This document shows positions 1,786 to 47,780 of a stretch of 47,780 nt of DNA, in pieces. The notes under the pieces were generated by a model that was given only the letters and a program-made list of their open reading frames with translations, was not told the DNA's origin and did not search any database. Position 1 is the first letter of the stretch; each line of letters starts with the position of its first letter. Source of the DNA: a virus; the IMG/VR virus record IMGVR_UViG_3300044825_002453, positions 1 to 47,780 of that record. One strand, written 5' to 3'. The translations under genes were made by a program, and so were the position numbers.

Positions 1786-2333
1786 GTCTCCTCGGATTCA
1801 AGGGCCAGAACCACCCGCAGCAAGTCGGCAAGCGCGCCGCTCTCGACTCGGTCGACGACCGCGGCACCGACCCCGAGTTCTTTGCACAGATGGTCGAGCG
1901 GTTCGGCCCGTTCGATCTTGACGCTGCCGCCGCTCCGCACAACGCGAAGTGTGAGCGGTACTACACGATCAACGACGACGCACTAGAGCAGCCGTGGCGC
2001 GGGAAAGTGTGGTGTAACCCGCCGTACTCGAACCTCGGCGAGTGGGTGCAGAAGGCGAAGCGCGAATACACGCTGGGTCACGCGTCGCTGATCGTGATGC
2101 TGCTCCCGGCCAACCGCACCGAGCAAGCGTGGTGGCAGGACCACATCGAGCCCTACAGGGACCGGCGGGAGGCATTTGGCCCTCGTGTCGAGTTCCTGCG
2201 CGGCCGCCTCCGCTTCGTGAAGCCGGGCGCCGAGTCGATCGGCCCCAACGAGCGGCCACCCTTCGGCTGCTGTCTCGTCATGTGGGCGCTGTCCGAACAT
2301 CGAGCCGCCGTGGATCACGGGGTGACGTCGTGA
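1782..2333 (+). CDS. dam: Phage N6-adenine DNA methyltransferase (Dam family)
   Basis: 183 residues, ATG overlapping the upstream stop. Residues near 67-72 read VWCNPPYSN, the catalytic (D/N)PPY motif of amino-methyltransferases, and FGPFDLDAAAAPHNAKC upstream matches the AdoMet-side region typical of phage N-6-adenine methyltransferases. The small size without a target-recognition insert is normal for this family. It probably protects phage DNA from host restriction. It is directly followed by a cytosine methylase. Confidence 0.9.
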   Translation: MSLLGFKGQNHPQQVGKRAALDSVDDRGTDPEFFAQMVERFGPFDLDAAAAPHNAKCERYYTINDDALEQPWRGKVWCNPPYSNLGEWVQKAKREYTLGHASLIVMLLPANRTEQAWWQDHIEPYRDRREAFGPRVEFLRGRLRFVKPGAESIGPNERPPFGCCLVMWALSEHRAAVDHGVTS

Positions 2334-3481
2334 AGTACGGCTCCATGTTCTCCGGCGCCGGCGGCCTCGACCTCGCCGTCGAGCAGTGGACCGGCGCAAC
2401 CTGTGCGTGGACCTGCGAACGGGACCCGCACGCGTCCTTTGCCCTCGCCGCGCACGGCACCGCCCCGAACCTCGGCGACATCACCGCCGTCGACTGGTCC
2501 TCGGTCGAACCGGTGGACGTGGTCTGCGGCGGGTTCCCCTGCCAGGACATCAGCAACGCCGGGAAACGTGCCGGGATCACCGGCGCCCGGTCAGGACTCT
2601 GGAGCTTCTATGCCGACGCCGTTCGCCACCTACGACCCCGGCACGTCTACGTGGAGAACGTGGGAGCCCTCCTTGTTCGAGGACTCGGAACCGTCCTCGG
2701 TGACCTGGCCGAAATGGGGTACGACGCGACATGGGGTTGCGTCCGAGCTTCCGACGCCGGAGCTCCCCACCGACGCGAACGAGTGTTCATCGTTGCTACC
2801 GACGCCGACCGCGTGGCTCGGCCGGCGCCCGTCGCAGTCGATCGGCGATCCGGCGAGGTGGACGAACCCGGAGCGGTCGAACGAGCTGTCGGACTTCATC
2901 GCGTGGCTGACGGAGGGGTGAAGCTCCTCCCGACGCCTGCCGCGTCGGCGTTCAACGACTCAGAGGACCCGCAGTCGTGGCTCGCTCGAGCGGAGCGGCT
3001 GAAGGAGAAGCACGGCAACGGCAACGGCGCAGGGATGCCGCTCGCAGTCGCCGCGAAGCTCCTCCCGACGCCGACGGCACGGGACGGCAAGGACGTGGGC
3101 AACCTGTCCACCGTCCCCGAGAACAGCCTGCTGCCGCGTGTCGTGTGGAACCAGTGGGGTGACCCGAAGCTCCTCCCGACGCCGACGGTCCAGCAGGGCC
3201 GCAACGCCACCTACGCCGACAGGTGGGGCGACTACGCCCCGGCGATCGAACGGTGGGAACACGTCCTCGGACGCCCCGCCCCCGCACCCGTGGACGAGAA
3301 GGGGCGGCTGTCCCCGATCTTCGTCGAGTGGATGATGGGCTGGCCCAACGGCTGGGTCACGCACCTCGACCACCTCGGCGTGAAGCGCACAGCGCAGCTA
3401 CGGCTCCTCGGGAACGGCGTCGTGCCGCAACAGGCGCTCCTCGCGTTCGCAGCGCTCGAGCACCTGGCGGTGACGTCGTGA
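2330..3481 (+). CDS. dcm: DNA (cytosine-5)-methyltransferase
   Basis: 383 residues from a GTG in a GTGA overlap. C5-methylase motifs appear in order: I (FSGAGGLDLA, about 7-16), IV with catalytic Cys (GGFPCQDIS, about 67-75), VI (ENV, about 109), VIII (HRRERVFIVA, about 147-156), then a variable region with repeated LLPTP blocks, and X (GNGVVPQQAL, about 361). It would methylate cytosine in phage DNA. The stretch 2805-2918 has poor third-position GC in this frame and excellent GC in the +1 frame, so the middle may be dual-coding or frameshifted. The C-terminal third could also start independently at GTG 2918. Confidence 0.88.
   Translation: MKYGSMFSGAGGLDLAVEQWTGATCAWTCERDPHASFALAAHGTAPNLGDITAVDWSSVEPVDVVCGGFPCQDISNAGKRAGITGARSGLWSFYADAVRHLRPRHVYVENVGALLVRGLGTVLGDLAEMGYDATWGCVRASDAGAPHRRERVFIVATDADRVARPAPVAVDRRSGEVDEPGAVERAVGLHRVADGGVKLLPTPAASAFNDSEDPQSWLARAERLKEKHGNGNGAGMPLAVAAKLLPTPTARDGKDVGNLSTVPENSLLPRVVWNQWGDPKLLPTPTVQQGRNATYADRWGDYAPAIERWEHVLGRPAPAPVDEKGRLSPIFVEWMMGWPNGWVTHLDHLGVKRTAQLRLLGNGVVPQQALLAFAALEHLAVTS
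2610..2921 (+). CDS. Overlapping ORF inside dcm (+1 frame), Dcm-associated LPTPT-type protein
   Basis: 103 codons from ATG 2610 to TGA 2921, nested in dcm. It reads like a real phage protein (TYDPGTSTWRTWEPSLF, WPKWGTTRHGVASEL, SSLLPTPTAWLGRRPSQS), a style I recall from regions of actinophage cytosine methylases. Over 2805-2918 its third positions are almost all G/C, while the dcm frame has many A/T there. Its stop overlaps a GTG at 2918 that resumes the dcm frame, as at normal gene junctions here. Whether it is a separate gene, part of a frameshifted methylase or a remnant is open. Confidence 0.5.
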   Translation: MPTPFATYDPGTSTWRTWEPSLFEDSEPSSVTWPKWGTTRHGVASELPTPELPTDANECSSLLPTPTAWLGRRPSQSIGDPARWTNPERSNELSDFIAWLTEG

Positions 3482-4357: not shown

Positions 4358-4860
4358 CCCTACAACTCACCCTCGCCACGCCCGTGACCGTCACCCCGTG
4401 GCGGGACCGGGCGGCGTGCGCCGGGCACCCGACCGGCTGGTGGTTCGCCGACCCCGGCACGTTGGAGGCGGGCACCGCCGAGGCGATCTGCGCCTCCTGC
4501 GCCGTCCGCAACGAGTGTGACGCCGACGCCGACCGCCACGGCGACGGTGGGTTCCGGGCGTGGCGCACCCGCAACCCCGCACCGATCCTCTGCGACGGTT
4601 GCCGCCAGCCGCTCGGCGTCGTCGAGCTCGCAGCCGGCGACCTTCACTGCGGCCCCACCTGCGCCGAGGCGGGGCAGGAGACCGAGTGGCAGCGCAAAGG
4701 GCACGGCCGCATCTCCACCTACAACGGCGGGTGCCGCTGCTCCGACTGCCGCGGCGCCGCGAGGGACAGCCGTCGCCGATCACGGGCACGGCTCAACACA
4801 ACTAGTGACGTTGGACCGGCCTACGGTGCCGGTCCCCGAACCGAAGGGGAGCAGAGATGA
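4354..4860 (+). CDS. WhiB-like regulator with C-terminal zinc knuckle
   Basis: 168 residues, GTG start in an overlap. The N-terminal WhiB core has cysteines at about 22, 46, 49 and 55 (RAACAG then ICASCAVRNEC), the ligand pattern for a 4Fe-4S cluster or zinc. The usual G(V/I)WGG turn is replaced by GDGGFRAW. A second CDGC pair follows at about 79, and near 115-135 comes HGRISTYNGGCRCSDC, a Cys-rich knuckle also found at 5183 and 10893. WhiB proteins bind the primary sigma factor and alter promoter choice. The 3' end contains an operator palindrome. Confidence 0.8.
   Translation: MTLQLTLATPVTVTPWRDRAACAGHPTGWWFADPGTLEAGTAEAICASCAVRNECDADADRHGDGGFRAWRTRNPAPILCDGCRQPLGVVELAAGDLHCGPTCAEAGQETEWQRKGHGRISTYNGGCRCSDCRGAARDSRRRSRARLNTTSDVGPAYGAGPRTEGEQR
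4795..4812. promoter_or_regulatory. Operator-like palindrome, site A
   Basis: AACACAACTAGTGACGTT matches the consensus AACACCACTAGTGGTGTT at 15 of 18 positions. Eight bases after it lies TACGGT (4821-4826), a TANNNT -10 hexamer, with the next gene starting at 4857. The same 8-base spacing occurs at site B, so the site probably overlaps the -35 region of a promoter. Confidence 0.5.
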
Positions 4861-5186
4861 GCGAGACGAAGGTGTACGTCAGAAAGGCGTACACGATCAC
4901 CCGCCAAGACCTCGCGGTCGGAGACAAGAACGTGGTGCACGCCACGGGCACCTACGAGACGCTCGAGCCGCTCGACGTGTCAGGGGTCGACCTCGGCCTC
5001 GTGACGGCGCAATCGGTCGCCGACGCCATCGACGAGGGGACGATCGAGGAGGGCGCCGACTACGGCGGCTGCGACGTGTGGCTGTCGGTCACCGTGACCC
5101 GCCCGAACCCCGCCTACTCCGGTCCCGACGCCCTGTTCCCCGACATGACCCCGCCCGAGACCATCACCGAGACGGTGGAGCTGTGA
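4857..5186 (+). CDS. Hypothetical protein, 109 aa
   Basis: ATG with GAAGGGGAGCAG upstream, overlapping the WhiB stop. It is acidic towards the C-terminus with regular beta-like alternation (KVYVRKAYTITRQDL) and contains one Cys. A putative operator and TANNNT hexamer lie 30-60 bases upstream, so it may head a transcript. Family not recognised. Confidence 0.75.
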   Translation: MSETKVYVRKAYTITRQDLAVGDKNVVHATGTYETLEPLDVSGVDLGLVTAQSVADAIDEGTIEEGADYGGCDVWLSVTVTRPNPAYSGPDALFPDMTPPETITETVEL

Positions 5187-5611
5187 CCGCCCACGGGACG
5201 ACGACCGGCTACCGCGACGGCTGCCGCTGCGACCGATGCCGCGACGCGAAGCGGGCCGACGTCGCCGCCTACCGGGGGCGGCGCCGCCAACGCGAGGCGG
5301 CGATCACCTCGGCCAACCTTGAAGATTCGGCGCTCGATGTCGATGTTTCATGGATGGCGCAGGCCGCGTGCCCCGGCTCCACCCTCGACTTCATGCCGGG
5401 CCGCGGCGGCAACCCTCGCGGACGCGACGCACACCGCGCGGTCTGCGCCGCCTGCCCCGTCCTCGAACCGTGCCGCGACCACGGCGTCCGCTACGAGGAG
5501 CACGGCATCTGGGGCGGCCTCACCGAACGGGAACGACGCGAGGAGCGGCGCGCCCGCGGCATCACCATGATCTCCCTCGACGTGCTCACCGCCCGCCTGG
5601 TGGCGTCGTGA
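5183..5611 (+). CDS. WhiB-like regulator with N-terminal zinc knuckle
   Basis: 142 residues, GTG start in a GTGA overlap. The N-terminus carries the knuckle HGTTTGYRDGCRCDRC (about 4-19), the module found C-terminally in the other two WhiB proteins. The WhiB core follows: Cys at about 63, then VCAACPVLEPC (about 87, 90, 96) and GIWGGLTERER (about 107), the classical WhiB turn and basic tail. Expected to bind sigma factor and DNA through a redox-sensitive cluster. The reversed module order shows domain shuffling. Confidence 0.88.
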   Translation: MTAHGTTTGYRDGCRCDRCRDAKRADVAAYRGRRRQREAAITSANLEDSALDVDVSWMAQAACPGSTLDFMPGRGGNPRGRDAHRAVCAACPVLEPCRDHGVRYEEHGIWGGLTERERREERRARGITMISLDVLTARLVAS

Positions 5612-5952
5612 ACCCCGACTGGCGCGACGACGCCGCCTGCCGCGGCCAGGACCCCAACATCTGGCTCCCCGAACGGGGCGACTCGGTGCTGCGGGCCAAG
5701 AGGATCTGCTCGACGTGCCCCGTCGCCGGCGACTGCCTCGAGTACGCCCTCGCCGAGGCGATCACCGTCGGCATCTACGGCGGCCTCTCCGAGAAGCAGC
5801 GGCGGCCCCTCCGCAAGCAGCGGCGACGGGAACGGCTCTGCGCCTGCGGGGCGCCGCCACGGGTCCTCGGCGCTGCGAGGTGCGAGGACTGCGAGCGGGG
5901 GCACCGCAACGAGGCGAAGCGGCGAAGCCGCGACCGGCGCGACGTCGCATGA
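5608..5952 (+). CDS. WhiB-like regulator
   Basis: 114 residues starting at GTG 5608 in an overlap. Cysteines at about 11, 34, 37 and 43 (DDAACRG then ICSTCPVAGDC) and GIYGGLSEKQRR at about 55 form a complete WhiB domain; Tyr replaces the usual Trp of GIWGG. The C-terminal half adds a basic region and four more cysteines (CACGAPP, CEDC) not typical of bacterial WhiB. It is the third WhiB in this operon and the last gene before a 110-base regulatory gap. Confidence 0.88.
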   Translation: MNPDWRDDAACRGQDPNIWLPERGDSVLRAKRICSTCPVAGDCLEYALAEAITVGIYGGLSEKQRRPLRKQRRRERLCACGAPPRVLGAARCEDCERGHRNEAKRRSRDRRDVA

Positions 5953-10228: not shown

Positions 10229-10896
10229 CTTCGGCTCAGGGTGACGAGAAGGGTTCCACTCCCTCTGAGCCGAACCCGATGGACGATCCTCGCGGCCCGG
10301 CACCGGATGGACGGGTGTGGTGCCGTGCTCACTCGAAGCAGTCAGGTGCGCCGTGCAAGAAGCTGGCCGTGCCCGGTGCGACGGTGTGCCGCAACCACGG
10401 CGCAGGCGCCCCCCAGGTGCGCGCTGCCGCGGCACGGAGGGTGGAGGAGCAGCGGGTGCGGGGCGAGGTCGCCGCCCGCATCGAGGAGGTGGCCGCCGCC
10501 GCGGCGTCGATGCACCCGATCGAGACGATGGAGATGGCGCGGGCCTACAGCCACGCGATGGCGCAGGTGCTCGCCGAGGTGCAGTCGGAGGCGGATCTCG
10601 CCGGCGGCCTCGACGGCCAGGTGACGGCGGCGGCGGAGATGTTCCGCCGCTGGACCGAGCTCGCGATGAAGGCGGGCAAGACCGCGGCGGACGCCGGCAT
10701 CGACGAGCGGCGCCTGTCGCTGTCGGAGGCGCAGTGGGACCAGTTGGCCGCGATCTTCGACGCGGTGCAGGCGTCGCTGCTCGCCCTGGTCCTCGCCGCG
10801 GTCCCTGAGGGGACCGTGGCGGCGGTGAGGGGCGTGTGGGTGGCGCAGGCGCCTCGGGTGATCGAGGCGGAGCTGCGGAAGGTGGGCGAGGCGTGA
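10225..10896 (+). CDS. terS: Probable terminase small subunit (Cys-His N-terminal motif)
   Basis: 223 residues, GTG in an overlap. Near residue 32 it reads WCRAHSKQSGAPCKKLAV, then ATVCRNHGAGAPQVRAAAARR, a Cys-rich block followed by HG-x-APQV that I associate with actinophage proteins coded before terminases and often called small subunits. The rest is helical, as expected for an oligomerising packaging protein. The large subunit is 4 kb downstream, which is farther than usual, so the role is tentative. Confidence 0.5.
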   Translation: MTSAQGDEKGSTPSEPNPMDDPRGPAPDGRVWCRAHSKQSGAPCKKLAVPGATVCRNHGAGAPQVRAAAARRVEEQRVRGEVAARIEEVAAAAASMHPIETMEMARAYSHAMAQVLAEVQSEADLAGGLDGQVTAAAEMFRRWTELAMKAGKTAADAGIDERRLSLSEAQWDQLAAIFDAVQASLLALVLAAVPEGTVAAVRGVWVAQAPRVIEAELRKVGEA

Positions 10897-11513
10897 CGTT
10901 CTCCCTCGCCTCGATGGGCGACCGCCCCAGGTGGCAGGACGACGCCGCCTGCGCCACCCTCCTCGCCGACCCGAAGTGGGCCGCCGCCTTCTTCCCGGTC
11001 CGCGCGGATGTCGGCGACGACCCCGTCTCCCTCAAGGACGCGGCGACGGAGGCGCTCGACGCTGCCGCGACGTACCGGGAGACCGGCGCCGACAACCACG
11101 GGACGAGGGCGAAGCAGGTGTGCGCGACGTGCCCGGTGTGGCGTGAGTGCCTCACCGAGGCCGTCGACCGCCGCGAGTCGGAGGGGATCTGGGGCGGCGC
11201 GGGTGGCGCCTACCTCCGTCACCTGCGCCGTCAGCGCCTCCACGGCATCGTGGCGTGGCAGGGGGCGCTCGAGCAGCACCGCCGCATCTTGGACTTCGTG
11301 GCGGGCCGCGGGCCCCGGCCGCAGGTGTCGAACCGGAACGGGCCAGGGGCCGAGCACGGCCGCATCGGCACGTACGCGAAGGGGTGCCGCTGTGACCCGT
11401 GCTCGATGGCGGCGGCGGAGAGGTCGTGGCGGTCTGGCCGTGGACGGGTCTACGATGCCGCCACCAGCAGCAGTGACACCACTAGTGGTGTTGGAGAGGG
11501 GTCGGCCGCATGA
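10893..11513 (+). CDS. WhiB-like regulator with long spacer and C-terminal zinc knuckle
   Basis: 206 residues, GTG start. WhiB cysteines at about 20, 77, 80 and 86 (DDAACAT then VCATCPVWREC) and GIWGGAGGAYLR at about 100. The first spacer is about 56 residues, roughly twice that of typical WhiB domains, through an insertion around residues 25-65. The C-terminus repeats the knuckle HGRIGTYAKGCRCDPC seen in the genes at 4354 and 5183. The last codons (SDTTSGVG) are made by palindrome site D. Likely a sigma-binding regulator. Confidence 0.85.
   Translation: MTFSLASMGDRPRWQDDAACATLLADPKWAAAFFPVRADVGDDPVSLKDAATEALDAAATYRETGADNHGTRAKQVCATCPVWRECLTEAVDRRESEGIWGGAGGAYLRHLRRQRLHGIVAWQGALEQHRRILDFVAGRGPRPQVSNRNGPGAEHGRIGTYAKGCRCDPCSMAAAERSWRSGRGRVYDAATSSSDTTSGVGEGSAA
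11475..11492. promoter_or_regulatory. Operator-like palindrome, site D (best copy)
   Basis: GACACCACTAGTGGTGTT contains a perfect 16-base palindrome (11476-11491). It lies 17 bases before ATG 11510, with GGAGAGG between. A TANNNT hexamer (TACGAT, 11451-11456) lies 18 bases upstream, so bound protein would sit over the start of any transcript from it. Confidence 0.6.
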
Positions 11514-14279: not shown

Positions 14280-14836
14280 GCGGCGACGAGCACCCCCCGA
14301 TGCTGTCGATCCTCCTCAGCGAGGAGCCGTCGCGCCTCAGGCAGCTCAACCGGCACACCGGCGACAGTCCCGCCGACATGATCGGCGACTGCTTCCGTAC
14401 CTCCATCGCGTGCCTCCTCGGCTACTCGCGCCCCGACTACGTGCCCCACTTCGTCGAGGAGACGATCCGGGCCGGTCTCGACGAGCATGGCGGGTGGGAG
14501 GACATCGCCGCGGCGCGCCGGTGGCTGCGCTCAGCGGAGGAGCTGGACCTCGCATTCATCGATCGCGACGAGGCCGACCGCCTCGGGTGCCCGTATCAGG
14601 TCACGGTGCGGTCGCATTCCGGCCCGTGGAATCACAGCGTCGTGGGTCAGCGTGGCGAGGTGGTGTGGTGCCCGACGACAGGTGACGCCGAGACGAAGCA
14701 CCCGGGCGCGTACACGATGCGCGACGCGCTCGAGGACGTGGTTCTTGTTGTGTGCCACCCGTACGAGCCGGACCCCGACGCGATGCTGGCGCAGTGGCGG
14801 TTCGCCGACGCGACGGCCATGAACGGGGCAGCGTGA
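14276..14836 (+). CDS. Papain-like/C39-like cysteine peptidase-fold protein
   Basis: 186 residues, GTG in an overlap. GDCFRTSIACLLGYS places a Cys at a helix start (residue about 39), followed by VPHFVEE; WNHSVVGQRGEVVWCPT later supplies a His, and an Asp follows. This Cys-His order and spacing match small phage proteins with a papain/C39-like fold that I know as coming near structural genes. Activity and target are unknown; it could process a capsid protein or act on the host. Confidence 0.55.
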   Translation: MSGDEHPPMLSILLSEEPSRLRQLNRHTGDSPADMIGDCFRTSIACLLGYSRPDYVPHFVEETIRAGLDEHGGWEDIAAARRWLRSAEELDLAFIDRDEADRLGCPYQVTVRSHSGPWNHSVVGQRGEVVWCPTTGDAETKHPGAYTMRDALEDVVLVVCHPYEPDPDAMLAQWRFADATAMNGAA

Positions 14837-21982: not shown

Positions 21983-22774
21983 GTGACGCTGACGCCGTAC
22001 TACTCCGACGACTTCGCGACGATCTACCACGGGGACTCGCTGGAGGTGCTCGACGCGCTCGACCTAGGCGAAGGCTCCGTCGACGCCATCCTCACCGACC
22101 CGCCGTACGCGTCCGGTGCCCGCCACGAAGCCGACAAGTCCACCCGCACCGGCGGCATGGTGCGCGGGCAGCGGTTCGCCGACAAGCCGATCGACAACGA
22201 CCGGATGACGACCACCGGGTTCGTGTGGCTCATGCGCGAGACGGCGCTGCGGACCTACGACGCCCTCGTGGACGGCGGCTCACTCGTCTGCTTCATCGAC
22301 TGGCGGCAGTGGCCCAACCTCGTCGGCGCGATCGAGACGTGCAATCTGCGGGTACAGACCATGATCGTGTGGGACAAGCGGACGCTCGGCATGGGTAACG
22401 GGTTCCGCCAGCAGCACGAGCTCGCCTGCCACGCGGCTAAGGGCGTCCCGAACGTCTACGACCGCGCGACACCGAATGTCCTGACGGTCGACCGCATCGA
22501 GCCGGATGACCACCCGTCCCCTAAGCCGGTCGCGCTGATCGACCGACTCCTCCGTGTCGTGACCCCACCCGGCGGACTGATTCTGGACCCGTTCATGGGA
22601 AGCGGTCGCCCGATGGAGGCAGCGAAAGCAGCAGGGCGTCGGTGCATCGGCATCGAGAAGAACGAGGCGTACTGCGAGCGCGCGGCCGAGCGGCTCACGC
22701 AGACGTTCGCGCTCGTCTCCTCGGCGGAAGTGTCGATCGACCCGCCGCCGTCCCTCGACCTCGGCGCCGCATGA
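21983..22774 (+). CDS. DNA methyltransferase (N4-cytosine/N6-adenine, beta class)
   Basis: 263 residues, GTG with GGGGGAGAG upstream. Motif IV TDPPY is at about 37-41 and motif I DPFMGSG near residue 200, so the order is catalytic then AdoMet-binding, the beta class; HPSPKPV before motif I is also typical. The usual TT after FMGSG is RP here. It is a third methylase in the genome, inserted between head genes. Likely anti-restriction modification. Confidence 0.9.
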   Translation: MTLTPYYSDDFATIYHGDSLEVLDALDLGEGSVDAILTDPPYASGARHEADKSTRTGGMVRGQRFADKPIDNDRMTTTGFVWLMRETALRTYDALVDGGSLVCFIDWRQWPNLVGAIETCNLRVQTMIVWDKRTLGMGNGFRQQHELACHAAKGVPNVYDRATPNVLTVDRIEPDDHPSPKPVALIDRLLRVVTPPGGLILDPFMGSGRPMEAAKAAGRRCIGIEKNEAYCERAAERLTQTFALVSSAEVSIDPPPSLDLGAA

Positions 22775-38382: not shown

Positions 38383-38621
38383 GCCTCGCCGACCAGGCGC
38401 TCGCCGCCAACTCGCAGCGGGCACGGGGGCCCCGCTCCCGCCTCGCCGCCGCCCTCGACGCCGCGGAGCCGAAGCTCCGGGCAGAGGTGCAGGAGGTGCT
38501 CGACCTGGTCGCCGACCGGCAGGTCATGGCGACCGTCGCCGCCGAGATCATCGGCGGCGCCCTCGGCGTCAAGCTCAGCGGCGAGCAGGTGCGCCGCCAC
38601 CTCGCAGAGGCTGAGACGTGA
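38379..38621 (+). CDS. Small helical protein, possible HTH
   Basis: 80 residues, ATG with CAAGGAGA upstream. RLAAALDAAEPKLRAEVQEV and TVAAEIIGGALGVKLSGEQV then RRHLAE could form a small DNA-binding fold. It overlaps the phosphoesterase gene and probably works with it. Low certainty on function. Confidence 0.65.
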   Translation: MSLADQALAANSQRARGPRSRLAAALDAAEPKLRAEVQEVLDLVADRQVMATVAAEIIGGALGVKLSGEQVRRHLAEAET

Positions 38622-39706
38622 CCCTCGCCGACGACGCCGCAGAGTTGGAGGCGGCGCGGACCCTTGACCGAGCTTACGACGCCGCCGCGAAGCTGCGCCG
38701 CGACCTCGCTGACGCACGACGCCGCCTCAAGGTCGTGGAGGATGAGCGCGACAGCTTCGCCGAGCTCGCCGCCATCCACGACGCCGTCGCCGCCTCCAAC
38801 CCGCGGCCACCAAAGTGGATGACCCCGAAGCGTCCCGGCAAGGGGCACCGCGGCACCCTCGTCCTGCTCCTCTCCGACACCCACTGGGACGAGGTCGTCG
38901 ACCCCGGGCAGATGTCGGGGATGAACGCCTACGACCGCCCCATCGCCGAACTACGGCTGAAGCGGTGGGCCGAGCGGGTCGTGATGCTCGCCCGCGACTA
39001 CACCGCCGGCGTCACCCTCGACGGGATCGTCGTCCTCTACGGCGGCGACAACCTCTCGGGCGACATCCACGAGGAGCTTCGCCGCACCAACGCCGACACG
39101 CTCCTCGGCGGCCTCCTCCACTGGCAGGAGCAGCTCGCCGCGGCGCTCGGCCTCGTCGCCGACGAGTTGAAGGTCCCCGTGCACATGGCGGCGACGTTCG
39201 GGAACCATCCCCGCACCACCGACAAGCCGCACACGAAGAACGAGGCCCGCACGAACGTCGACTGGGTCCTCGCGCACCAGGTCGCCCGCCACTTCCGCGG
39301 CGACGACCGGTTCACCTTCGACATCCCCGAGGCCCGCGACGTCTACGTCACCGTCTACGGGACCACCCACTGCCTCAACCACGGCAACGAGACGACCGGC
39401 GGCTCGGGCATCGGCGGCATCTGGCCCCCCATCATGCGGATGAAGGCGCGCAAGGTCGAGCGTGACATGGCCTACGGGCGCCGCTGGGACGTCCTCTGCA
39501 TCGGCCACTGGCACCAGGAGATCTTCGCCCCGCAGCAGGGCCTCATCGTGAACCCGGCGATGAAGGGCTACGACGAGTACGCGAGGCGCCACAACTTCCG
39601 CCCGGAGCGGCCGGCGCAGCTTGCGTGGCTCGTCACACCGGAGCACGGGATCACCGACGGGCGGCCGATCATCGTGGGGGACCGCAAGCGCGAGGGGTGG
39701 GGCTAG
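38618..39706 (+). CDS. Calcineurin-like metallophosphoesterase with N-terminal coiled coil
   Basis: 362 residues, GTG in an overlap. Residues 5-60 form a coiled coil. The phosphoesterase motifs follow: LLSDTHWDE (about 87), GGDNLSGDIHEE (about 139), GNHPR (about 195) and GHWHQE (about 295), which hold two metals. Related phage enzymes act on DNA ends (Mre11/SbcD-like) or RNA. The late position in the lysis region is seen in other actinophages; substrate unknown. Confidence 0.82.
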   Translation: MTLADDAAELEAARTLDRAYDAAAKLRRDLADARRRLKVVEDERDSFAELAAIHDAVAASNPRPPKWMTPKRPGKGHRGTLVLLLSDTHWDEVVDPGQMSGMNAYDRPIAELRLKRWAERVVMLARDYTAGVTLDGIVVLYGGDNLSGDIHEELRRTNADTLLGGLLHWQEQLAAALGLVADELKVPVHMAATFGNHPRTTDKPHTKNEARTNVDWVLAHQVARHFRGDDRFTFDIPEARDVYVTVYGTTHCLNHGNETTGGSGIGGIWPPIMRMKARKVERDMAYGRRWDVLCIGHWHQEIFAPQQGLIVNPAMKGYDEYARRHNFRPERPAQLAWLVTPEHGITDGRPIIVGDRKREGWG

Positions 39707-39715
39707 GCGCCGAGG

Positions 39716-39750
39716 TGCATCCTCGCCGCCCCCCACCTCCCCGGCACCCT
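39716..39750 (+). promoter_or_regulatory. Late promoter-like element 7
   Basis: TGCATC 39716-39721, 23 bases, CACCCT 39745-39750, 6 bases, ATG 39757. Confidence 0.65.
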
Positions 39751-39756
39751 GTCGCC

Positions 39757-39948
39757 ATGACCCGCGACGAGCGCCTCGCCGCCCTCCTCATCCTCGGCGT
39801 CCTCGCCGCCGCCGCCCTCGGCTGCACCACCTGGCTCCTCGCCGCAGGCGTCAGCGCAGAGGCGGCACTCGCCGTGTTCGGCCTCGGGAACCTGTGCGCC
39901 GGCGCCGTCGCCGGCGCCCTCACCCTCGGCCGCGTCGAGACGTCGTAG
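39757..39948 (+). CDS. Small membrane protein with two segments, holin-like
   Basis: 63 residues, leaderless ATG behind late element 7. Hydrophobic stretches LAALLILGVLAAAALGCTTW and AALAVFGLGNLCAGAVAGAL span the membrane twice; the N-terminus is charged. Late expression and topology suggest a second holin or antiholin. Confidence 0.7.
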   Translation: MTRDERLAALLILGVLAAAALGCTTWLLAAGVSAEAALAVFGLGNLCAGAVAGALTLGRVETS

Positions 39949-40053
39949 CCAACCTCACGCCGCCAGTGAGGTAGCCCGATCCGGTGAGGATTCCGCGACT
40001 AGGCGACTAGTCATGGGGCGGAGGGCACACCGCCGCGTGACTAGTCTCCCGGC
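39949..40053 (+). promoter_or_regulatory. Region before integrase remnant: terminator, GACTAGTC repeats, promoter
   Basis: Contains the stem 39952-39972, three copies of CGACTAG/GACTAGTC (39996-40002, 40005-40012, 40039-40046) and TAGTCT (40042-40047), a TANNNT hexamer six bases before GTG 40054. The last repeat overlaps the -10, as an autoregulatory operator would. In serine-integrase phages the attachment site is usually here too. Confidence 0.55.
39952..39972 (+). terminator. Stem-loop at end of late region
   Basis: ACCTCAC (39952-39958) pairs with GTGAGGT (39966-39972) around a 7-base loop, directly after the last late gene. No U-tract. Confidence 0.5.
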
Positions 40054-40233
40054 GTGCCCGTCGCCCTCTACGCCCGCATCTCCCGTGACCCCGCAGAGCA
40101 GCGGGTCGGGGTCGACGACCAACTACGGCGCCTGACCGCCTACGCCGCGGTCACCTGGCCCGGCGCCCGAACCGCTGCTGAGGGGACAGGGGAGGCATCA
40201 CGACACGACCCCCGAGGCATATCGTGGCGTCGA

Positions 40234-40259
40234 GATCGGGGGCACATGCTCCCCCGATC
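40234..40259. terminator. Perfect 9-bp stem-loop
   Basis: GATCGGGGG (40234-40242), loop CACATGCT, CCCCCGATC (40251-40259). It would end transcripts entering from the integrase side. Confidence 0.6.
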
Positions 40260-40293
40260 CCCTGAGGAAACTTTCTCGGTGCTGGTCCATGGT

Positions 40294-40311
40294 GGCACCG
40301 TAAGTGGTGTT
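40294..40311. promoter_or_regulatory. Operator-like palindrome, site F
   Basis: GGCACCGTAAGTGGTGTT keeps CACC and GGTG arms at the consensus spacing. It lies in the switch-like region, 150 bases before ATG 40461. Confidence 0.45.
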
Positions 40312-40333
40312 CGGCGCATCGGTCTACCTGCGC

Positions 40334-40462
40334 TTATGCCTGAACGGTGTACGAAGCATTCTTTATGCCTGGTGTAACTACGGGTCTGGAACTTGGCCCG
40401 TAGCGGCGCTACGTGAATAGTGATGTTGACAGCCAGGCATATCGGGCGCATACTTCAGGCAT
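40334..40462. promoter_or_regulatory. Four TTATGCCTG/CAGGCAT operator sites
   Basis: TTATGCCTG occurs at 40334-40342 and 40363-40371, and its inverse CAGGCAT(A) at 40434-40441 and 40456-40462. The two inverse copies lie in the promoter spacer and across the transcription start. Two inverted pairs about 65-100 bases apart suggest DNA looping or a cooperative repressor. Confidence 0.6.
40426..40454 (+). promoter_or_regulatory. Near-consensus leaderless promoter for 40461
   Basis: TTGACA (40426-40431), 17-base spacer, CATACT (40449-40454), then 6 bases to ATG 40461. This is the best sigma-70/SigA-type promoter in the window. With no room for a Shine-Dalgarno the message would be leaderless. Confidence 0.8.
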
Positions 40463-40733
40463 GGAGAGCACCACACAGCACCCCGCCGAGATCGGAAACC
40501 GCCGAGCGCTCGTCGCCGCGACCGTCGCCCACCTCGACGCCCGTACCGAGGGACGCATCAGCGCCGACCTGCTCGCCGACCTCGACGCCGACGGCTGGGC
40601 CATCGTCCAGCAGGACATGGGCCGGACCCGCCCCTTCTCCGACGAGACCGCCGCTGCGATCGTCGCCGAGAAGCGGTGGCGGGAACTGGCCGCCGCCGCC
40701 GAGATCGACGACCCGTTCGAGGGAGTGATCTGA
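40461..40733 (+). CDS. First gene of early rightward operon, small helical protein
   Basis: 90 residues from ATG 40461, chosen because the promoter places the start of RNA there; upstream GTG 40413 would lie in the promoter. Sequence: RRALVAATVAHLDARTEGRI, SADLLADLDADGWAIVQQD, then EEKRWRELAAAAE-like helices. It could be a regulator acting on the CAGGCATA sites, but no HTH is certain. Confidence 0.75.
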   Translation: MESTTQHPAEIGNRRALVAATVAHLDARTEGRISADLLADLDADGWAIVQQDMGRTRPFSDETAAAIVAEKRWRELAAAAEIDDPFEGVI

Positions 40734-41050
40734 TGAACACCGCAAGTAGTGCAGAGCAGCGCCACCTCGACGGCGAGGACTGCGGCGGGTCGTGGTGGGG
40801 CGGCTGCCGCCTCTGCGGCGAGGAGATCGCCGAGGACACCGACACCAGGCGCGAGGTTGCGTTCCAGATCGACTTCAACGGCGACACCATCACCACCGAG
40901 GCGTGGTGGGTGGACGACGGCGGCGCCGGGCAGTGCAACGACTACACCACGACCACCCTCGGCGACGACCCGACCGAGGCGCTCCGCCTCGCGGTGGCGT
41001 GGCTCGCCGAGACGGTCGGCGTCAAGCTCCCCGAGGCGGTGGCGTCGTGA
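40733..41050 (+). CDS. Hypothetical protein with Cys pair
   Basis: 105 residues, ATG in a TGATG junction. CGGSWWGGCRLCGEEI contains CxxC-type spacing that may bind metal; the middle is beta-like (EVAFQIDFNGDTITTEAWW), the end helical (EALRLAVAWLAETV). Its first codons coincide with palindrome site G. Function unknown. Confidence 0.7.
   Translation: MNTASSAEQRHLDGEDCGGSWWGGCRLCGEEIAEDTDTRREVAFQIDFNGDTITTEAWWVDDGGAGQCNDYTTTTLGDDPTEALRLAVAWLAETVGVKLPEAVAS
40736..40753. promoter_or_regulatory. Operator-like palindrome, site G
   Basis: AACACCGCAAGTAGTGCA at the start of the 40733 gene; left arm intact, right arm degraded. Confidence 0.35.
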
Positions 41051-41217
41051 GCATCTACGACGACGTGCACGCCGAGGCGATGGCCGACTACCGGGCCACC
41101 GACTTCGACTACGACGGCCCCTCCGCCTCCGACCTCGACGACGAGGACCGCGACCTCATCGCCCGGGCAGCGACGACGGCACGGCTCGACGCGACGGTGC
41201 GGCGGGTGTTCCGGTGA
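41047..41217 (+). CDS. Small acidic hypothetical protein, 56 aa
   Basis: GTG in an overlap. SIYDDVHAEAMADYRATDFD, then SASDLDDEDRDLIARA: strongly acidic and helical, ending basic (RLDATVRRVFR). It overlaps the XRE gene; an acidic partner of a DNA-binding protein is conceivable but unproven. Confidence 0.65.
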   Translation: MSIYDDVHAEAMADYRATDFDYDGPSASDLDDEDRDLIARAATTARLDATVRRVFR

Positions 41218-41456
41218 GTCCCGCGGCAGCGGTCGGCGCCCGCATGATGCGGCAGCGTCAACTCCTCGGGATGACGCAGGGGGCGTTCGCCGCCCTCGTC
41301 GGCGTCGGACAGCCGCAGGTGTCCCGCTGGGAACGTGGCGACGTCGTCGTCCCGTTCGCCCGGCGCGCCGAGGTCGCGATGGCCCTCCGCATGTCACCCG
41401 CGGCCCTGTTCCGTGAGGTGCTCCACGCCGAGATGGTCGCCGAGGTCGTGGCGTGA
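41214..41456 (+). CDS. XRE-family helix-turn-helix regulator
   Basis: 80 residues, GTG in an overlap. ARMMRQRQLLGMTQGAFAAL, then VGVGQPQVSRWERGD is a classical Cro/CI-type HTH (about residues 8-45), followed by AEVAMALRMSPAALF. It lies 1.1 kb from the integrase remnant in the switch-like region. It is the best candidate to bind one of the operator families, though which one is not shown. Confidence 0.88.
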   Translation: MSPAAAVGARMMRQRQLLGMTQGAFAALVGVGQPQVSRWERGDVVVPFARRAEVAMALRMSPAALFREVLHAEMVAEVVA

Positions 41457-47015: not shown

Positions 47016-47780
47016 TCCGGCTGCCGCATCCCCCGACCGTCCCCGACGACATCCCCGCCCACATGGTGCTCGGCTGGCGGCTCGTCCATCCCGACCTCAC
47101 GTCCCGCGGCGGGTTCCGGTGGCCGTTCCCCGGCCACTGGTGCGAAGCGCCCGGCCCGATCAAGGCCCACAAGGGCGCGTGCCCGAACGGTGAGGGCGAC
47201 GGGATCTGTGTGGCCCGCTCCTGGTCCGGTGCGATGTCGGGCTCGATTCGCTCGCAGACATGCCTGCTCGTCGCCTACGAACCGAAGGCGGTCCTCGGTG
47301 AGGACCACGAGAAGGTGCGTGTGCGTCGGGCGCTGGTGCTCGACGTGTTCTCCGCCACCGTCGGGCTCGGCCCCGGGGCGGACCTCTCCGGGGCGAACCT
47401 CGCCGGGGCGGACCTCTCCGAGGCGTACCTCTCCGGGGCGTACCTCTCCGGGGCGTACCTCTCCGGGGCGTACCTCACCGGGGCGAACCTCTCCGAGGCG
47501 AACCTCACCAGGGCGAACCTCACCGGGGCGGACCTCTCCGGGGCGGACCTCACCGGGGCGGACCTCACCGGGGCGGACCTCTCCGGGGCGAACCTCTCCA
47601 GGGCGGACCTCTCCGGGGCGAACCTCACCGGGGCGAACCTCACCAGGGCGAACCTCACCAGGGCGAACCTCACCAGGGCGAACCTCACCAGGGCGAACCT
47701 CTCCGGGGCGAACCTCACCGGGGCGAACCTCACCAGGGCGAACCTCACCAGGGCGAACCTCACCAGGGCGAACCTCACCA
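47012..47780 (+). CDS. Pentapeptide-repeat protein, N-terminal part (continues at base 1)
   Basis: GTG in a GTGA overlap; 256 codons and no stop before the window ends. Residues 1-120 form a distinct N-terminal domain ([49 protein letters not shown]) seen in other phage pentapeptide proteins; repeats start at about residue 122. Joined through the 90-base overlap with 47-136, the complete protein would have 390 residues. Target unknown; gyrase or another DNA-binding protein is possible from family knowledge. Confidence 0.85.
47375..47780 (+). repeat. 15-bp tandem repeat array encoding pentapeptides (right end)
   Basis: About 27 copies of the 15-base unit. 47691-47780 equals 47-136 base for base, in the same coding phase. 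47375-47590 closely matches 240-455, including the run of Tyr-containing units ([14 protein letters not shown]). Confidence 0.95.

Follow-up and report, generated by a model that had tools for sequence, protein, structure and literature searches.

An attP-like palindrome and a truncated integrase frame as a probable relic of lost integration in a phage genome

The window analysed here is the whole of IMG/VR virus record IMGVR_UViG_3300044825_002453, a single record of 47,780 bases. In the gap between its late genes and the next block of genes to the right lies an attP-like palindrome, followed by the first codons of a large serine integrase. We consider it likely that these are the remains of the integrase cassette of an actinobacterial phage, cut by a deletion which would have left the attachment site (attP), a leaderless promoter and a 5' stub of the gene. 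Relics of lost integration are known, and the locus is most likely another of them. The initial annotation had read the stub as a sign of either recent loss of lysogeny or a retained short regulatory peptide, and this interpretation is half right: the stretch probably represents an integrase remnant together with its attP, and not a gene for a peptide.

Concerning the setting, the identified late genes run rightwards (terminase at 14752, capsid, tape measure, endolysin and a small protein ending at 39948). The last of these, a small hydrophobic protein of 63 aa (39757–39948, + strand), has no match among the PHROGs, for which + strand frames were scanned. Tandem arrays of one common 15-nt unit are found at both ends of the record, at 2–472 (31 copies) and 47373–47779 (27 copies), which fits a nearly complete genome closing on itself; in IMG/VR, either no end repeats were found or the record was not classed as closed. 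By eye, the end arrays resemble a pentapeptide-repeat gene, and the record may close on itself inside the array. Three frames matching WhiB-like regulators (4517–5611 and 5350–5952, which overlap, and 10836–11513) point to an actinobacterial host. Matches to DNA methyltransferase families are seen in the frames 1596–2333 and 2042–3481, which also overlap, and 21983–22774. At the DNA level, the only similarity of 39700–40740 to phages is short and falls in the capsid gene of Gordonia phage Bakery.

The frame starting at GTG 40054 is open to 40377 (107 aa), and its residues 2–32 are the part which resembles large serine integrases. An N-terminal YxRxS motif with the nucleophile serine is expected of a functional large serine integrase; it is present here as VALYARIS, and the serine-recombinase start VALYARISRD named in the initial annotation is confirmed at residues 3–12. 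PHROG 95 (integrase), from a library of 38,880 families, matches residues 1–33 with E=0.0019. In PDB, phmmer finds the TP901-1 integrase (3bvp, E=0.017; frame residues 3–36 against chain residues 5–40 of 138), and tblastn in a phage collection of 2.3 billion bases finds mycobacteriophage serine integrases, among them that of AlleyCat with 53% identity over 30 residues (E=0.4). A profile of 32 integrases (15 named reference phages, A118 and 16 loci found by pattern) was also compared with the 853 six-frame stretches of the record. It matches the stub at model positions 6–36 of 469, up to base 40149, with E=1.2e-6, a flattering value since 16 of the 32 members were picked with a pattern derived from the motif of the window itself. 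With only the 16 named phages E is 0.00019, and the most independent profile, without AlleyCat and TP901-1 (both first found with the stub), gives E=0.02.

The remnant therefore covers residues 1–32 (40054–40149, + strand), including the nucleophile serine, as the profile and the AlleyCat alignment both lose the similarity after residue 32 (base 40149); against TP901-1 it ends at about residue 35, and in each case before the 42 or so residues first estimated. To call it an integrase reduced to its catalytic N-terminus is correct in that an N-terminal remnant with the nucleophile serine is left, but too strong, as about 31 of 469 profile positions remain. Neither PF00239 nor Pfam as a whole matches the stub, and the complete resolvase catalytic domain (PF00239) of a functional large serine integrase is absent there. 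With the nucleophile serine of YARIS but without the rest of the catalytic domain the stub cannot act as a recombinase, in line with established knowledge of the serine recombinase family. No integrase similarity is found in the rest of the open frame (40150–40377, + strand), which we treat as non-coding.

The missing 3' part was searched for by profile, by tblastn with the AlleyCat and TP901-1 integrases as queries and by domain families, and was not found in the record. PF00239, PF07508 (recombinase domain) and PF00589 (tyrosine integrase) are absent from all six frames of the 47.8 kb, and nothing in the rest of the record significantly matches the later positions of the full-length integrase profile (next best stretch E=0.2). 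When 48 + strand frames were compared with the PHROGs, the stub was the only one to hit an integration family among the matches listed. A tblastn match of the AlleyCat integrase at 1191–1301 (E=0.048) was rejected as the missing part, since the 32-sequence profile lists nothing there at E<=10. ParA-type PF13614 and ParB PF02195 are likewise not found in the record. Loss of lysogeny, understood as loss of the integration gene, is supported by these results, and the phage would no longer integrate by itself.

Upstream of the stub, the three CGACTAG/GACTAGTC words which had been reported, one of them over a TANNNT -10, are present: CGACTAG at 39996–40002, and GACTAGTC at 40005–40012 and 40039–40046. 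GACTAGTC is seen twice in the window against 0.27 expected (at least two copies in 4 of 100 shuffles), and GACTAG by itself, with 6 found against 7.3 expected, shows no enrichment over the window as a whole, but five of the six sit within 39997–40046. The words are real, but they are not three independent repeats. Both copies of GACTAGTC belong to the arms of one palindrome (40002–40021 against 40030–40049) and are not independent, and the third word (+ strand) lies outside it. The palindrome itself is imperfect, 48 bp long (40002–40049) and centred at 40025/40026, 28 bp before the start codon. Scored over the 20 outer base pairs of each 48-bp stretch it reaches 17/20, the top of 47,732 centres in the window (runner-up 15/20). 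Such centres occur 0.017 times per simulated window and were reached by 1 of 60 first-order simulations, somewhat flattering figures since the 48-bp measure was picked after the palindrome had been seen. When folded as DNA it scores z=-3.36, a value that 0 of 200 shuffles equalled.

For A118-type attP sites, PMC3783163 puts the zinc-ribbon motif at half-site positions 16–24. In the window, CTAGTCTCC stands at these positions in one half and CTAGTCGCC in the other, with 8 of 9 bases equal, as would be expected of the outer motifs of such a site. An imperfect palindrome of about 48–50 bp beside the integrase gene is also what an attP should show. The dinucleotide at the symmetry centre (40025–40026), however, is GC, which is self-complementary, and an attP should have one that is not.

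The right arm contains TAGTCT (40042–40047, + strand), a TANNNT ending 6 nt before GTG 40054 and one of only 16 occurrences on the + strand of the entire window. We presume it to be the -10 of a leaderless integrase promoter because of its spacing to the start codon. Eleven of the 15 reference phages have a TANNNT ending 6–8 nt before the start; taking the Bxb1-type site as one makes this 9 of 13. The same is seen at 7 of the 16 pattern-found loci, where several candidate starts were allowed for each, against 25 of 4386 start-like codons there. L021, L025, L026 and L030 are Actinobacteria serine integrases in which a TANNNT is separated from the start codon by 6 nt. By eye, the upstream DNA of L025, L026 and L030 is alike, as if one gene were their common target.

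The palindrome was compared with those of the 15 named reference phages, scored from 130 bases before to 30 bases after the integrase start. At least 14/20 is reached in nine (Bxb1, phiC31, phiBT1, Paedore, Hydra, Lizalica, Nyxis, Big3 and Acme), with centres at -25 to -80 and seven distinct sites, as Bxb1, Big3 and Acme have one in common. The centre of the phiBT1 palindrome falls within the annotated attP, and those of Bxb1 and phiC31 we take to be their attP sites. The remaining six score lower (TP901-1 13, Reedo 12, Blino 11, Alatin 11, AlleyCat 10 and Estes 10), as does A118 with 11 in a separate test over a wider range, so the palindrome is not universal; AlleyCat, which has the closest named integrase, counts against a general rule. 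A self-complementary centre is seen in none of the seven distinct sites of at least 14/20. The window's 17/20 at -28 tops the whole reference set. In the wider range, Bxb1 has a better palindrome, 16/20 at -112, which is followed by a T run and resembles a terminator. An earlier score over 22 pairs gave 18 for the window against 11–15 at the 16 pattern-found loci, of which the 12 from genomes are not a fair control since they could belong to prophages, in which attP would be divided. Judged by size, symmetry and position against the reference phages, nine of which show the feature, two of the three words are probably the relic of an attachment site, as had been suggested for all three; the third word does not take part.

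The same palindrome could instead end the late transcript as a terminator hairpin, or serve the integrase promoter as a dimeric operator, with the stub still an integrase relic. This is unlikely, though it deserves to be taken seriously: the palindrome folds strongly, its right arm covers the -10, the CGACTAG at 39996 hints at a repeated operator, the central GC is without polarity and six of the 15 reference phages lack a palindrome of at least 14/20. Nevertheless, the stretch 39600–40800 yielded no terminator-like site having a T run, and the 48-bp size, the centre at -28 and the overlap with the -10 are those of the reference attP regions.

To the right of the stub the DNA changes. The stretch after the break is GC-poorer and has a promoter-like site of its own, TTGACA-17-CATACT (40426–40454, + strand), whose -10 ends 6 nt before ATG 40461; the spacing resembles that at GTG 40054. 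It is preceded by a perfect 9-bp GC-rich hairpin (40234–40259, + strand), a possible terminator without a T run. Four of the window's six copies of the operator-like words ATGCCTG/CAGGCAT fall in the 127 bp from 40336 to 40462 around this promoter; its spacer contains one of them, and another lies where transcription presumably starts. The first gene of the right-hand block (40461–40733, + strand) encodes 90 aa, and an HTH_3 (Cro/CI-type) regulator of 80 aa follows at 41214–41456 (+ strand). A 14-nt inverted repeat around the break (40097–40110/40166–40179) was dismissed as chance, since the window holds 24 such pairs.

Relatives of the locus were looked for in viral contigs and genomes. The exact-codon pattern of the stub is absent from the viral contigs, and no close relative was confirmed among 20 pattern-matching stretches of viral contigs and 593 of genomes. 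A looser pattern gave the 12 genome and four viral loci used above as comparison integrases, of which L021, L023 and L027 run off the compared stretch. The comparison with relatives having a full integrase, as first proposed, found none covering the locus in these collections, nor any with the same breakpoint, and the genes to the right have no relatives found there either. Relatives exist for the gene at 38618 (three records, L001–L003, 46–48%) and for the capsid (L013 100%, L014 82% and L015 81%, in records of 4–10 kb). PF00239 is found at E<=1 in 0 of 14 related records (L001–L008 and L010–L015; L009 left out), all of which are shorter than the window, seven of them below 12.1 kb, and none of which is shown to cover the locus. 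Two terminase relatives, L010 and L011, carry tyrosine integrases.

A full integrase might still be present in the phage or in part of its population, the record showing a wrong join or a deletion variant. The sequence is an IMG/VR virus record, no stop or frame break occurs before 40149 and the -10 looks intact, as expected of a very young or artificial break. We regard such an artefact as distinctly improbable: no exact repeat longer than 13 nt is shared between 40120–40210 and the rest of the window, so there is no obvious repeat for a misjoin within the record, and the GC-poorer DNA past the break, with its own promoter-like site, looks like a plausible real neighbour.

Very improbable, too, is a chance resemblance, or a remnant of an IS607-type serine recombinase instead of a phage integrase. 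The similarity spans only about 31 residues, Pfam gives no match, the most independent profile reaches E=0.02, and IS607 transposase, another serine recombinase, weakly matches the first 43 residues in NCBIfam (E=0.012) as well as in PDB (6dgb, E=1), so the exact recombinase subfamily is not certain. Against this stand the PHROG 95 match, the first rank of the stub among the 853 stretches under all three profiles, and the palindrome and -10, placed as expected for an integrase. We give hardly any credence to the idea that the phage retains a functional orphan attP and integrates in trans, borrowing its integrase from a prophage resident in the host or from a relative infecting the same cell; if it did, the self-complementary GC centre would allow insertion in either orientation. 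The other early proposal, that the stub encodes a short functional (regulatory) peptide, can be set aside almost entirely, for despite an intact start and -10 and a frame open to 40377, relatives are found neither in viral contigs nor in genomes, the third-position GC drops along the frame from 0.82 (segment starting at 40054) to 0.58 (segment starting at 40189), and the similarity is gone after about residue 32–35.

Based on the relic reading, the ancestor would have been an actinobacterial phage whose late and early genes were separated by an ordinary large-serine-integrase cassette, in which a 48-bp palindromic attP lay over the -10 of a leaderless promoter, followed by the integrase gene. 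A deletion would then have taken all beyond about codon 32, possibly immunity genes too, and brought the stub up against the control region of the right-hand genes. The attP, the promoter and a 5' stub unable to recombine DNA would be left over. This makes a plausible case of a serine-integrase cassette trimmed with its recognition site left behind; taken alone, it belongs to a familiar type of relic. The layout of attP over the promoter, seen in part of the reference phages, could guide searches of metagenomes, both for attP sites and for phages that were once temperate.

Among known systems, the closest likeness is to the large serine integrase cassettes of actinophages (Bxb1, phiC31, phiBT1, Paedore, Hydra and Lizalica), which share with the window a 48-bp palindrome just upstream of the integrase gene and an N-terminus resembling the stub; Bxb1, Paedore, Hydra and Lizalica also have a TANNNT ending 6–8 nt before the start. 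The window differs from them in being integrase-like for about 32 codons only and in its central dinucleotide GC. In comparison with the catalytic domain of TP901-1 (PDB 3bvp), it lacks the other approximately 100 residues, as well as the whole C-terminal part. Concerning the event itself, PMC3203893 describes for mycobacteriophage TM4 (Cluster K) the loss of about 3.5 kb with integrase and attP, plausibly also a repressor, from a temperate parent, which makes this kind of event a known one. As proposed for the window, TM4 is held to derive from a temperate parent through deletion of the integration gene. The integrases of TM4's relatives are of the tyrosine type, and TM4 itself is reported to lack the integrase gene and attP alike, lost together, whereas in the window an attP-like site, a promoter and a 5' stub are still there. 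Measured against that account of TM4, the variation in the present phage is that the attP-like site and the stub are left behind.
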